Assembly (NCBI RefSeq): GCF_030219325.1 | Contig: NZ_CP126625.1 | Coordinates: forward strand, 496,001 to 560,000 | Source: Geothrix sp. | Lineage (GTDB): Bacteria > Acidobacteriota > Holophagae > Holophagales > Holophagaceae | Reading direction: 5' to 3' | Length of the DNA stretch: 64,000 nucleotides | Shown here: piece by piece, positions 30,440 through 39,831 of the stretch | How positions within the stretch are numbered: the first letter of the stretch is position 1 | Layout of the letters: each line of letters begins with the position of its first letter | Made by a program: the position numbers and the translations under genes | The notes under the pieces: model-generated | Told to the model about the DNA's origin: nothing | The model's input: the letters and a program-made list of their open reading frames with translations, nothing else | Databases searched by the model: none

Positions 30440-30545
30440 TGGACCTCCGGGGTCGGAATCGTCGCACCCTGCTACAGGTTGCAGAATGCGACGAATGTTG
30501 AGGGTTTCAAATTGAGCCAAGTCGTTGTTTTGCTTTACATATGAT

Positions 30546-30563
30546 TTGGCCCAAAGCCTGCTT
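30546..30563 (+). promoter_or_regulatory. Possible sigma-54 promoter
   Basis: TTGGCCC-AAAGCC-TGCTT places GG (30548-30549) and GC (30560-30561) with exactly ten bases between them, as in the consensus TGGCAC-N5-TTGC. It lies 49 bases before the ATG of the Lys-rich repeat protein and just after a sigma-54 activator gene. The -12 element is degenerate, so this is tentative. Confidence 0.35.
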
Positions 30564-30611
30564 GGGGTTATGCACTTCCGGCCGTGCCGGATCACCCCAG
30601 GGAGCACCCCC

Positions 30612-31727
30612 ATGAAGAAGCTTGCTGCGCTGCTCGTCGCCGCCGCTCTGATCAGCCCCGTCTTCGCCGAAGAGGCCAAGAAGCCCGAAGCCAAGAAGAC
30701 CGAGAAGGTTGAGACCAAGAAGGCCGAGAAGAAGGCCGAGCCCAAGAAGGAAGAGGCCAAGAAGGCCCTGACCGCCGAGGAGAAGAAGGCCGAGCCCAAG
30801 AAGGAAGAGAAGAAGGCCGAGAAGAAGGCTGAGAAGAAGGCCGAGCCCAAGAAGGAAGAGGCCAAGAAGGCCCTGACCGCCGAGGAGAAGAAGGCCGAGC
30901 CCAAGAAGGAAGAGAAGAAGGCCGAGAAGAAGGCTGAGAAGAAGGCCGAGCCCAAGAAGGAAGAGGCCAAGAAGGCCCTGACCGCCGAAGAGAAGAAGGC
31001 TGAAGCCGCCCCCAAGGCCGAGAAGAAGGCCAAGAAGGCGAAGAAGGCCAAGGCTGAGCCCAAGAAGGAAGAGGCCAAGAAGGCCCTGACCGCCGAAGAG
31101 AAGAAGGCCGAAGCCGCCCCCAAGGCCGAGAAGAAGGCCAAGAAGGCGAAGAAGGCCAAGGCTGAGCCCAAGAAGGAAGAGGCCAAGAAGGCCCTGACCG
31201 CCGAAGAGAAGAAGGCTGAAGCCGCCCCCAAGGCCGAGAAGAAGGCCAAGAAGGCGAAGAAGGCCAAGGCTGAGCCCAAGAAGGAAGAGGCCAAGAAGGC
31301 CCTGACCGCCGAAGAGAAGAAGGCCGAAGCCGCCCCCAAGGCCGAGAAGAAGGCCAAGAAGGCGAAGAAGGCCAAGGCTGAGCCCAAGAAGGAAGAGGCC
31401 AAGAAGGCCCTGACCGCCGAAGAGAAGAAGGCTGAAGCCGCCCCCAAGGCCGAGAAGAAGGCCAAGAAGGCGAAGAAGGCCAAGGCCGAGCCCAAGAAGG
31501 AAGAGGCCAAGAAGGCCCTGACCGCCGAGGAGAAGAAGGCCGAGAAGAAGGCCGCCTGCCCCAAGGACTGCCAGAAGGAGTGCTGCAAGAAGGCTGAGAA
31601 GAAGGCCGAGGCCAAGAAGGCCCTGACCGCCGAAGAGAAGAAGGCCGAGCCCAAGAAGGAAGAGAAGAAGGCCGAGAAGAAGGCTGAGCCCAAGAAGGAT
31701 GAGAAGAAGGCTGAAGCCAAGAAGTAA
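30612..31727 (+). CDS. Secreted Lys/Ala/Glu-rich repeat protein
   Basis: 371 residues: a good signal peptide (MKKLAALLVAAALISPVFA), then an almost pure K/A/E/P chain. Five tandem 36-residue units of the type AEPKKEEAKKALTAEEKKAE... occupy residues about 112-291, preceded by two shorter related repeats. A Cys cluster CPKDCQKECC (Cys 316, 320, 324, 325) interrupts the pattern near the C-terminus. ALTAEEKK recurs about nine times. The chain should form long charged helices. Histone-H1/TolA-like composition, but no known family; the signal peptide argues for an envelope or extracellular role. A terminator follows, so it is monocistronic. Confidence 0.85.
   Translation: MKKLAALLVAAALISPVFAEEAKKPEAKKTEKVETKKAEKKAEPKKEEAKKALTAEEKKAEPKKEEKKAEKKAEKKAEPKKEEAKKALTAEEKKAEPKKEEKKAEKKAEKKAEPKKEEAKKALTAEEKKAEAAPKAEKKAKKAKKAKAEPKKEEAKKALTAEEKKAEAAPKAEKKAKKAKKAKAEPKKEEAKKALTAEEKKAEAAPKAEKKAKKAKKAKAEPKKEEAKKALTAEEKKAEAAPKAEKKAKKAKKAKAEPKKEEAKKALTAEEKKAEAAPKAEKKAKKAKKAKAEPKKEEAKKALTAEEKKAEKKAACPKDCQKECCKKAEKKAEAKKALTAEEKKAEPKKEEKKAEKKAEPKKDEKKAEAKK
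30945..31484 (+). repeat. Five tandem 108-bp coding repeats
   Basis: Copies start at 30945, 31053, 31161, 31269 and 31377, each 108 bases (36 codons) and nearly identical; differences are mostly GCC/GCT and GAA/GAG synonymous changes. A sixth partial copy begins at 31485. The near identity suggests recent expansion or gene conversion. Confidence 0.92.
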
Positions 31728-34768: not shown

Positions 34769-36043
34769 TCAGGAGAAGGTCAGCGCGTACGCCAGGTCGG
34801 CCTGCAGATCCCGGACGTCCTCGAGCCCGATGGAGAGCCGGATGAGGTCATCGCTGATGCCCGCCCGCCGGCGGGCCTCGGGCGTCATGGAGGCGTGGGT
34901 CATGGAGGCGGGGTGGGCCACCAGCGACTCCACGCCGCCCAGGCTCTCGGCCAGCGTGAACCAGCGGAAGCGCCGCAGCACGTAGTTCAGGCGCTCGTTG
35001 CCGCCCTCCTTCAGCTCGAAGCTGAGCATGGCGCCGAAGCCGCGTTGCTGGCGTTTCGCCAGCTCATGCTGCGGGTGGCCGGGCAGGCCCGGGTAGTGGA
35101 CCTTGCCCACGGCGGGATGGGCCGCGAGGAACTCCGCCAGTACCTGGGCGGTGGCCTCGTGCTGGCGCATGCGCAGGGGCAGGGTCTTCAGGCCGCGCAG
35201 CACCAGGAAGCAGTCGTGCGGCGCCTGCGAGGTGCCCAGCAGGTTGTTCACGCTCTGGATCTGCTGGGTGAGGGCGAGCCGGCCGGGGGCTGAGACGACG
35301 ATGCCGCCCACCACGTCGCTGTGGCCGTTGAGGTACTTCGTGGTGGAGTGGATGACCAGGTCGGCGCCCAGGTCGAAGGGCCGCTGCAGGTAGGGGGACA
35401 GGAACGTGTTGTCCACGGCCACGAGGCAGTTCGGCTGGCGATGGCCGATGGCAGCCACGGCGGCGATGTCCGTGAGGCGGAGCAGGGGGTTCGACGGCGT
35501 CTCGATCCAGATCATGCGGGTGTTGGGCTGGATGGCGGCCTTCACGGCCTCGAGGTCCGCCAGGTCCAGGTAGGTGACCTCCAGGCCATAGGCCTTCTTG
35601 GCGTGCTCCAGCAGGCGGAAGGTGCCCCCGTAGCAGTCCACGGTGCTGATGAGGTGGCTGCCGTGCTCAAACAGGTTCAGGGCCACCAGGATGGCGCTCA
35701 TGCCGGTGCTGGTGCAGGTGGCGCCGTGGCCGCCCTCCAGCAGGGCGATGGCCTCCTCCAGGACCGCGCGGGTGGGGTTGCCGCTGCGGGTGTAGTCGTA
35801 GCCCGCGTTGGTGCAGATGTCCTTGAAGGCGAAGGTGGACGAGAGGTACAGGGGCGGCATCACGGCACCATAGGCGGGATCCGGCTGCACGCCGCCATGG
35901 ACGCACTGCGTGGCCACACCCGCGTCGGGCACGAGGCCCGGCCGGTGGATCCAGCCCGCATTGCCCTCCCGCCCGGGGGGCTGGATGGTGAAGTGGTAGG
36001 CCGGGTTGCCGGGCACGTTGGTATCGAGGAACTGCTCGCTCAC
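34769..36043 (-). CDS. Cystathionine gamma-synthase/lyase family PLP enzyme
   Basis: 424-residue PLP enzyme of the Cys/Met-metabolism family. Seen: YDYTRSGNPTRAVLE, CTSTGMSAILVAL, WIETPSNPLLRLTD, VDNTFLSPYLQRPF, the PLP-Lys in HSTTKYLNGHSDVVGG, and LAESLGGVESLVAHPASMTH. About 40 extra residues precede the usual N-terminus. The SAM-I riboswitch upstream ties it to methionine or cysteine synthesis, so cystathionine gamma-synthase (metB) or O-acetylhomoserine sulfhydrylase are more likely than a degradative lyase; sequence alone does not separate these. Confidence 0.9.
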   Translation of the reverse strand: MSEQFLDTNVPGNPAYHFTIQPPGREGNAGWIHRPGLVPDAGVATQCVHGGVQPDPAYGAVMPPLYLSSTFAFKDICTNAGYDYTRSGNPTRAVLEEAIALLEGGHGATCTSTGMSAILVALNLFEHGSHLISTVDCYGGTFRLLEHAKKAYGLEVTYLDLADLEAVKAAIQPNTRMIWIETPSNPLLRLTDIAAVAAIGHRQPNCLVAVDNTFLSPYLQRPFDLGADLVIHSTTKYLNGHSDVVGGIVVSAPGRLALTQQIQSVNNLLGTSQAPHDCFLVLRGLKTLPLRMRQHEATAQVLAEFLAAHPAVGKVHYPGLPGHPQHELAKRQQRGFGAMLSFELKEGGNERLNYVLRRFRWFTLAESLGGVESLVAHPASMTHASMTPEARRRAGISDDLIRLSIGLEDVRDLQADLAYALTFS

Positions 36044-36349: not shown

Positions 36350-37210
36350 TCAGGCCTTCCAGTCACCGTGCAGCTGCCCCTCGAAGACGGGCTGCACGGG
36401 GCCGGACATGAGGATGTGGCCCTCGGGTGCGAACTCGATGTCGAGGGTGCCGCCGGGCATCTGGACCGTGACGCGATCCTCCACCAGGTTCAGGCGCCGG
36501 CAGGCGGCGGCGGCGGCGCAGCTGCTGCCCGAGGCGGGCGTGTAGCCGGCGCCCCGCTCCCAGATCTCGATGCGGATGCGCCTGCGGTCGACCACCTCCA
36601 CCAGCAGGACGTTCACCCGCTCGGGGAACTCCGGGTGTCGCTCGATCCTGGGCCCCAGGCGGCAGGCATTGGCCTGGGAGACCTCGCCCGGGAAGACCAC
36701 GCAGTGGGGGTTGCCCAGGCTGAGGGCCGTGATGGTGACTGGGCCCGTGGGGAGGAAGAGCGGGGTTTCCAGGACTTCGAGCTGGGAGGAGATGCCCGTG
36801 AACGGAATGTCGCCCGCCTTGAAGCTGGGTACGCCCATATCCACCTGGACGAGGCTGCCATCCGGCGCCAGGAAGCGCGCAGCGGAGAGGCCACCCAGGG
36901 TGTGGATCTGGCACTCGGTGCCATGCGCGTGGCCCGCCTCGAACAGGTAGCGGGCGAAGATGCGGAGGCCGTCGCCGCTGGTCTCCGCCTCACTGCCGTC
37001 CGGGTTGAAGATGCGCAGCCCGAAGGCGCCCGGATGCTCCGGCACCTCCAGCGGACCCAGCAGGAGCCCATCGGAGCCGATGCCCAGCCGGCGATCGCAG
37101 AGCGCCTGGATGAGCGGGGGCGCCGGCTCGAAGGCGGTCCGGGTCGGATCCACCACGAGGTAGTCGTTTCCGAGCACGTGGAATTTGGAGAAGCGGAGCG
37201 TGTTCGACAT
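36350..37210 (-). CDS. DapF-family epimerase paralogue with Ser in place of both catalytic Cys
   Basis: 286-residue protein of the diaminopimelate-epimerase fold: two similar halves, FSKFHVLGNDYLVVD at the start, GSDGLLLG, NPDGSEAE, SLGNPHCVVF. Catalytic Cys73 and Cys217 of DapF (in MCGNG and ACGTG) correspond here to Ser78 (ETSGDGLR) and Ser227 (YTPASGSS). Two-base DAP epimerase chemistry needs both Cys, so its activity may differ. I recall related sequences with SGNGLRIFA in other bacteria, usually annotated DapF. It neighbours the DJ-1-like gene (13 bases away). Confidence 0.85.
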   Translation of the reverse strand: MSNTLRFSKFHVLGNDYLVVDPTRTAFEPAPPLIQALCDRRLGIGSDGLLLGPLEVPEHPGAFGLRIFNPDGSEAETSGDGLRIFARYLFEAGHAHGTECQIHTLGGLSAARFLAPDGSLVQVDMGVPSFKAGDIPFTGISSQLEVLETPLFLPTGPVTITALSLGNPHCVVFPGEVSQANACRLGPRIERHPEFPERVNVLLVEVVDRRRIRIEIWERGAGYTPASGSSCAAAAACRRLNLVEDRVTVQMPGGTLDIEFAPEGHILMSGPVQPVFEGQLHGDWKA

Positions 37211-37223
37211 GGTCAGGGGCGGC

Positions 37224-37805
37224 TCACAGGGTGATGCGGGTTCCGAGCACCTGGAGGAACTGGGCGAGCCAGGCCGGGTGCGCGGGCCAGGCGGGGGCGG
37301 TGACCAGGTTCCCGTCGGTGACGGCGCCGTCGATGGCGATCTCGGCATACTTCCCCTTGGCCACCTCCACCTCGGCCCGGCAGGCGGGATAGGCGGAGCA
37401 GGTGCGCCCCTCCAGCACGCCGGCTGCGGCCAGCAGCTGGGCGCCATGGCAGATGGCCGCCACCGGCTTCTTGGCCGTGAAGAAGTGCCGCACGAGGTCC
37501 AGCACCTTCGGGTTGAGCCGCAGGTACTCGGGAGCCCGGCCGCCGGGGATCACCAGGGCGTCATAGGCTTCAGGCTTCACATCCGCGAAGCTGGTGTTGA
37601 GGGTGAACCGGTGGCCCGGTTTCTCCGAGTAGGTCTGGTGACCCTCGAAGTCGTGGATGGCCGTGGCCACGGAGTCGCCGGCCTTCTTGTCGGGGCAGAC
37701 TGCATGCACGGTGTGCCCCACGGCCAGCAGGGCCTGGAAGGGCACCATGATCTCGTAGTCCTCGCCGAAGTCACCGACGAGCATGAGGATCTTCTTCGCG
37801 GCCAT
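37224..37805 (-). CDS. DJ-1/PfpI family protein
   Basis: 193-residue DJ-1/PfpI domain protein. Seen: [23 protein letters not shown] (with the conserved Glu), [17 protein letters not shown], and the nucleophile elbow [14 protein letters not shown] with Cys. Ribosome site AAGGAG at the chosen ATG. The family includes glyoxalases, deglycase-like and protease-like members; the pattern here (ICHGAQ) is closest to the PfpI/YhbO stress-protein branch. Probably transcribed with the DapF paralogue downstream. Confidence 0.9.
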
Positions 37806-37914
37806 GGGAGTCTCCTTGGGGTGGTGGAACCGCCCCGATGATACGCGTATCCAGGGCTGAGCAGGGCCCGATCGGGCAAGTCCGGGACCCCCGGACCTGC
37901 GGGCCGGGACCGGG

Positions 37915-39831
<1,917 letters not shown>

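Follow-up and report, generated by a model that had tools for sequence, protein, structure and literature searches.

Can a diaminopimelate (DAP) epimerase work with serine in place of both of its catalytic cysteines? DapF, an enzyme of cell-wall and lysine synthesis, is a standard example of the cofactor-free removal of a very weakly acidic alpha-proton by a pair of cysteines, and it is a drug target through these two residues. The question is raised by P0001, a DapF-like protein encoded in a 64,000-nucleotide stretch of a Geothrix genome (hereafter the window, to which all coordinates without another label refer). From sequence comparisons, we conclude that P0001 belongs to a widespread natural DapF branch in which both cysteines are serine, and that the epimerisation of LL-DAP to meso-DAP is its most likely activity. 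For the branch as a whole, the Ser/Ser proteins are, on balance, likely to be DAP epimerases with a Ser/Ser acid-base pair; for P0001 itself our confidence in this is lower, because of the substitutions N80D and L225P and of its accessory status in the genome.

A DapF-like protein with serine at both catalytic positions

The open reading frame of P0001 lies on the minus strand, with its ATG at 37210, its stop codon at 36350-36352 and the N-terminal sequence MSNTLRFSKFHVLGNDY. Cys73, Cys217, N64, N157, N190, E208 and R209 are cited in H. influenzae DapF numbering. The relevant features are the following:

36350..37210, minus strand: P0001, Ser/Ser DapF-like protein, 286 aa (ORF, translation, PF01678, TIGR00652, AlphaFold2, Foldseek)
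36977..36979, minus strand: Ser78 codon (AGC), at the catalytic Cys73 position (alignment to solved DapFs and homologues)
36971..36973, minus strand: Asp80 codon, replacing the almost invariant Asn of the CGNG motif (alignments)
36563..36565, minus strand: Ile216 codon, candidate compensating residue (column comparison, ancestry not corrected for)
36554..36556, minus strand: Glu218 codon, member of the distal-DAP-binding set (invariant in 81/81; role of the equivalent residue from PMC12039745)
36530..36532, minus strand: Ser227 codon (TCG), at the catalytic Cys217 position (alignment to solved DapFs and homologues)

P0001 scored 218.4 bits against TIGR00652 (cut-off 114.65, which it passes) and 165 bits against PF01678 (cut-off 34.7) in profile searches. 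Its AlphaFold2 model (29 aligned relatives as input; mean pLDDT 94.7, pTM 0.91) shows two similar alpha/beta domains folded as in DapF, and the top solved matches found with Foldseek were all DapF, with a TM score of 0.90 to 9mro. The two catalytic cysteines characteristic of DapF are absent: the motifs ETSGDGLR and YTPASGSS align with CGNG and CGTG of solved DapFs, and the columns of Ser78 and Ser227 contain Cys in every Cys/Cys homologue aligned. Both serines are conserved in all 22 aligned Geothrix-type genes (P0001 included), the second one through synonymous TCN codons. The replacement of both cysteines, the central claim of the original prediction, is thereby confirmed. By their titles, the laboratory mutants 2q9h (C73S) and 2q9j (C217S) were the only solved relatives that could be recognised as Ser forms.

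The motif Asn is N in 78 and D in 3 of 81 aligned sequences, P0001 being N80D; among Geothrix-type genes this column is D in 15/22 and N in 7/22. With Ser78 and Asp80, P0001 does not match the PROSITE DapF signature containing C-[GI]-N, as quoted in PMC8225329. Leu225 is also replaced by Pro (L225P), and 15 of the 22 Geothrix-type genes carry both changes. In summary, P0001 resembles DapF (EC 5.1.1.7; TIGR00652, PF01678; 9mro, 3ejx, 5ha4, 1gqz) in its fold, domain pair and distal-DAP residues, and its type has the GNPHC and WERGAG motifs and, in some genomes, lysA/dapA linkage; it differs by Ser for both Cys, Tyr for Glu in GAGET, GSS for GTG, a bulkier residue 216 and, in P0001, N80D. The proline/hydroxyproline superfamily gave no match to P0001 in NCBIfam or Pfam, and its solved members listed among the structural matches are distant (13-19% identity). 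Likewise, the PLP family with an alanine-racemase-like fold ("DapF2") was absent from the NCBIfam and Pfam matches of P0001.

According to PMC12039745, Asn66, Asn164, Asn197, Glu215 and Arg216 of Anabaena DapF bind the distal end of DAP. The corresponding set in P0001 is Asn69, Asn167, Asn200, Glu218 and Arg219: N64, N157, N190, E208 and R209 are kept in P0001 and in 81/81 aligned sequences, and N64, N190, E208 and R209 in 92/92 acidobacterial Ser/Ser rows. It had been proposed that a Ser/Ser pair would shift chemistry or substrate. The question of chemistry stands; a change of substrate is unsupported, given these unchanged residues, the fusion or adjacency to lysA/dapA in several phyla, and the many genomes with lysA and without DAP dehydrogenase (Ddh) in which the Ser/Ser gene is the sole member of the DapF family.

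Ser/Ser forms across phyla

A scan of named genomes found at least 581 relatives, of which the best 80 were retained. Their catalytic positions are Ser/Ser in 79 and Cys/Cys in one (L079), in a sample tilted to Ser/Ser because the query is itself Ser/Ser. Verrucomicrobia, Planctomycetota, Spirochaetes, Cyanobacteria, Bacillota, Chloroflexi, Deltaproteobacteria, Pseudomonas and other taxa appear in the record titles of these 80 relatives.

Sole-copy occurrence was surveyed in 50 genomes that contain a Ser/Ser gene, drawn from the 78 loci L007-L084 (50 loci used). The Ser/Ser gene is the single TIGR00652 match in 28 of these 50 genomes of unrated completeness, one of the cases (L029) lying on a 5.57 Mb chromosome record (CP070652.1). 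A further gene could be read as Cys/Cys in 19 of the remaining 22; the further matches are fragments in two others (G258 and G281) and a broken Ser/Ser-type copy in the last (G283). A Burkholderiales genome contains, besides its intact Ser/Ser gene, a broken second Ser/Ser dapF (L084:1598-2104) some 4 kb away. The occurrence of Ser/Ser as the only copy in many genomes suggests that this form works. Ddh exceeded its cut-off in only one of 51 genomes (G262), where a Cys/Cys DapF is present as well, and in none of the 28 sole-Ser/Ser genomes. LysA exceeded the cut-off in 17 of these 28, gave a weaker match in 7 and no match in 4.

Some gene arrangements link the Ser/Ser form to DAP and lysine metabolism. 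In a Chloroflexi locus (L069), a LysA-type decarboxylase is followed by a Ser/Ser DapF within one ORF of 733 aa (open frame 739 aa); lysA adjoins Ser/Ser dapF upstream in L057 (TIGR01048, 463.8 bits) and in L023 (partial frame), and the gene directly downstream is dapA in L075, alr in L070 and an LD-carboxypeptidase family gene in L077. Beyond these few lysA, dapA, alr and LD-carboxypeptidase cases, no conserved operon partner was found across phyla, most neighbours being unrelated housekeeping genes.

Census of the Acidobacteriota

A TIGR00652 match was found in 193 of the 197 Acidobacteriota genomes with a completeness of 90% or more. When the class to which the window belongs is set aside, the match is present in 170/174 genomes and the gene was read in 135 of these 170; since the 35 unread genomes include the lowest-scoring rows, the proportions given here are valid for the genomes read. 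These 135 genomes comprise 91 Ser/Ser, 42 Cys/Cys and 2 Cys/Ser (136 loci, one gene twice). The TIGR00652 match is single in 90 of the 91 Ser/Ser genomes, the other one (G187) having two. The clearest individual case is G155, a one-contig, 100% complete genome with one Ser/Ser gene (L203), LysA over the cut-off and no Ddh.

Ddh exceeded its cut-off in 2/197 Acidobacteriota, both of them Cys/Cys genomes, and in 0/91 Ser/Ser genomes. As a general reason for sole-copy Ser/Ser genes, Ddh is therefore ruled out, its occurrences (2/197 and 1/51) all being accompanied by a Cys/Cys DapF. LysA was over the cut-off in 71/91 Ser/Ser versus 10/42 Cys/Cys genomes (Fisher p 3e-9, ancestry not corrected for), an imbalance that could stem from ancestry or from another route to lysine. 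LysA over the cut-off together with any DapB match was found in 59/91 Ser/Ser and 10/42 Cys/Cys genomes. Of the 91 Ser/Ser genomes, 20 have no LysA over the cut-off and 28 no DapB match at all, so that the pathway is not complete everywhere by these models.

Phylogeny and co-varying positions

The tree was built by a quick search on 126 rows (82 Ser/Ser, 42 Cys/Cys and 2 Cys/Ser), with SH-aLRT support only and with the catalytic columns included. The branch of P0001 forms one clade of 36 rows (support 100, starred), which groups (99, starred) with ordinary Cys/Cys DapFs including that of E. coli, the acidobacterial Ser/Ser rows falling outside. Judged from the sequences compared, the branch of P0001 would be the one most widely spread between phyla. 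A phylogeny of the Ser/Ser forms, suggested at the outset, thus does reveal a large and well-separated Ser/Ser clade. The accompanying idea of a widely misannotated separate family holds for the separate clade, which TIGR00652 calls DapF; that this name is a misannotation is unsupported.

The Ser/Ser label needs three changes on this tree, at least two of which are forced by starred branches; a single origin of Ser/Ser is consequently unsupported. Some Cys/Cys DapFs may have arisen from Ser/Ser ancestors, or the change may have gone the other way; the tree gives no direction. Two acidobacterial Cys/Ser DapFs (L131 and L212) were observed to group together (88), close to L137, a Ser/Ser line that stands apart.

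The two catalytic positions change together: the 277 aligned rows (31 of them under two names) contain 207 Ser/Ser, 68 Cys/Cys, 2 Cys/Ser and no Ser/Cys pairs. After the two serines themselves, the column that differs most is residue 216, which is Ile or Phe in Ser/Ser forms and Thr/Ser or Val/Thr in Cys/Cys forms; the separately placed Ser/Ser pair L137/L310 has Val here and the Cys/Ser pair Ile.

A second DapF in the host genome and the Geothrix genus

The host genome (3.73 Mb, one contig) contains one further PF01678 gene in profile searches:

C1:~119077-119931 (L004:4078-4932), beside parA/parB: divergent Cys/Cys DapF

A search for a canonical DapF elsewhere in the genome had been suggested as a check, and this single Cys/Cys copy answers to it, in a divergent form: it has the motifs CSNG and CCGTG, keeps E208/R209 and scores 91.3 bits against TIGR00652, under the 114.65 cut-off. 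It belongs to the same DapF family as P0001, from which it differs by its high divergence, its Cys pair and an Asp at the distal-DAP Asn64 position. CSNG, instead of CGNG, is common to the other genus genes of this type that were read. Being under the cut-off of the DapF model, the Cys/Cys copy may escape annotation; as it fails TIGR00652 while P0001 passes, annotation by this model would give the DapF name to the protein without the cysteines and withhold it from the one that has them. With a second DapF present, P0001 is not needed as the only epimerase of its host.

We considered 37 genomes of the genus, the window's own included. A Cys/Cys-type match is present in 34 of them, interrupted by stops in one more (G005) and absent from G028 (87% complete) and G034 (77% complete); the 12 genes of this type that were read (the host's own and 11 others, two from G003) are all Cys/Cys. 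The Ser/Ser gene occurs in 18/37 genomes, as 19 genes that were all read and are all Ser/Ser. In Geothrix, the Ser/Ser gene is thus accessory to a Cys/Cys DapF that nearly all genomes have. A Ser/Ser form peculiar to one genome is ruled out by this distribution (18/37), by 79 of the 80 best relatives and by 91/135 Acidobacteriota.

Pairwise dN/dS against P0001 ranges from 0.11 to 0.41 (21 comparisons among Geothrix-type genes), and the gene is under purifying selection. A pseudogene is excluded by these ratios, by the intact frame and by the invariance of both serines in the Geothrix-type genes. Two Ser/Ser sub-forms exist in Geothrix, SGDG/YTPASGSS (that of P0001) and SGNG/YTLASGSSSC; both were observed in tandem in one genome (L116:5791-7714).

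The genes around P0001 are the following:

34769..36043, minus strand: cystathionine gamma-synthase/lyase family gene, directly downstream (not implicated)
37224..37889, minus strand: DJ-1/PfpI family gene, directly upstream, true start probably further in (TIGR01382, 188.7 bits; not implicated)
37915..39801, minus strand: thiC (phosphomethylpyrimidine synthase), second gene upstream (not implicated)

Over 20 Geothrix-type loci, thiC is found in 19, an FKBP gene in 19, PfpI in 18 and cystathionine synthase in 11, several misses (including the one thiC miss) falling at contig ends. The locus is conserved but uninformative, no functional clue emerging from the neighbours in these 20 loci. Two further observations were made in the host genome. 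An ORF of the window (30525-31727, plus strand) opens with a signal-like segment; its body, rich in Lys, Glu and Ala, is built from 7-8 copies of a 108-base tandem repeat (92-96% matches). Near the Cys/Cys dapF, a TrpC (indole-3-glycerol-phosphate synthase) frame (L004:1036-2457) continues into a long Lys/Ala/Pro-rich, histone-H1-like tail; there is an internal Met ahead of the tail, so that two genes are possible.

Even if most of its Ser/Ser relatives are epimerases, P0001 itself might have taken on a new role, such as action on another amino acid or regulatory binding, as a paralogue that is specialised or has weak activity. Its accessory position beside a Cys/Cys DapF, the length of the branch to the Geothrix clade (0.65), the N80D and L225P pair in most Geothrix-type genes and the tandem of both sub-forms in L116 all speak for such a role, which we nevertheless hold to be unlikely in view of the unchanged distal-DAP residues, the retention of both serines and the low dN/dS. 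Given its accessory status, we see P0001 as probably a second epimerase, possibly a specialised one.

Can serine perform the chemistry?

In PMC12039745 and PMC8142540, DapF is described as closing on its substrate and expelling water; the alpha-proton is then passed between thiolate and thiol groups located at two helix ends. If P0001 is an epimerase, it would carry out the same 1,1-proton transfer on the alpha-carbon of DAP; Ser78 and Ser227, at the N-terminal ends of the helices, would be the base and acid in place of the thiolate and thiol. The setting for this pair would be a closed, dry active site re-tuned around hydroxyls, and tighter packing by the bulkier residue 216 perhaps helps it.

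Several facts count against this explanation: the host has another DapF, about half of the genus lacks the Ser/Ser gene, P0001 carries N80D and L225P, LysA or DapB is missing by these models from part of the Ser/Ser genomes, most neighbours are unrelated genes, and single Cys-to-Ser mutants of related enzymes are nearly inactive. Activity falls below 0.1% of wild type in PddB (PMC8225329) and is greatly reduced in HisR (PMC11602996); PMC8225329 explains such losses by the far higher pKa of the hydroxyl. PddB, HisR, CntK and O-ureidoserine racemase have a DapF-like fold and are often annotated DapF, as are the Ser/Ser forms, but they are described as using two Cys (PMC8225329, PMC11602996, PMC12039745), and the Ser/Ser DapFs keep the DAP-distal residues. 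Natural catalytic serines do exist in the same fold: a 4-hydroxyproline epimerase uses a Ser93/Cys pair for two-base catalysis (PMC4113996). Such Ser enzymes of the proline racemase superfamily share with the Ser/Ser DapFs the overall fold and a natural Cys-to-Ser change at a catalytic position; unlike them, they have Ser on one side only, the other being Cys or Thr, and act on other substrates. Our literature search, conducted mostly without subscription papers, returned no report of a natural Ser/Ser DapF and no measured activity of any Ser/Ser protein.

Alternatively, the Ser/Ser DapFs might bind DAP or a close relative and catalyse a one-base reaction, namely the beta-elimination or dehydration of a 3-substituted DAP. 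By analogy, trans-3-hydroxyproline dehydratase is a Ser/Thr enzyme with this fold (PMC4113996 and PMC4364671), and a review states that glutamate racemase retains the elimination of chloroglutamate after a Cys-to-Ser change (PMC8142540). Genomes with a sole Ser/Ser gene, LysA and no Ddh would still need an epimerase, however, and the neighbours include no conserved partner of a new pathway, which makes a one-base role distinctly improbable. That the Ser/Ser DapFs are inactive remnants or scaffolds, with meso-DAP made by an unrelated enzyme such as a PLP racemase (a replacement of this type, "DapF2", is proposed for staphylococci in PMC9026213), is very improbable in the face of the strict conservation of both serines across phyla, the purifying selection and the LysA fusion.

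Implications

Returning to epimerisation by a serine pair, we lean slightly towards the view that a large share of bacteria, among them about two in three of the Acidobacteriota genomes read, make meso-DAP by a cofactor-independent Ser/Ser epimerase devoid of catalytic cysteine. A conserved, sole-copy Ser/Ser form would mean either that serine does DapF chemistry or that another enzyme supplies meso-DAP widely, and both would be new. In the host genome it goes along with an inversion of annotation, the Cys-lacking protein passing the DapF model and the Cys-bearing one failing it. If the serine reading is true, DapF chemistry can do without the thiolate/thiol pair, and inhibitors aimed at the cysteines of DapF would be ineffective in Ser/Ser organisms.
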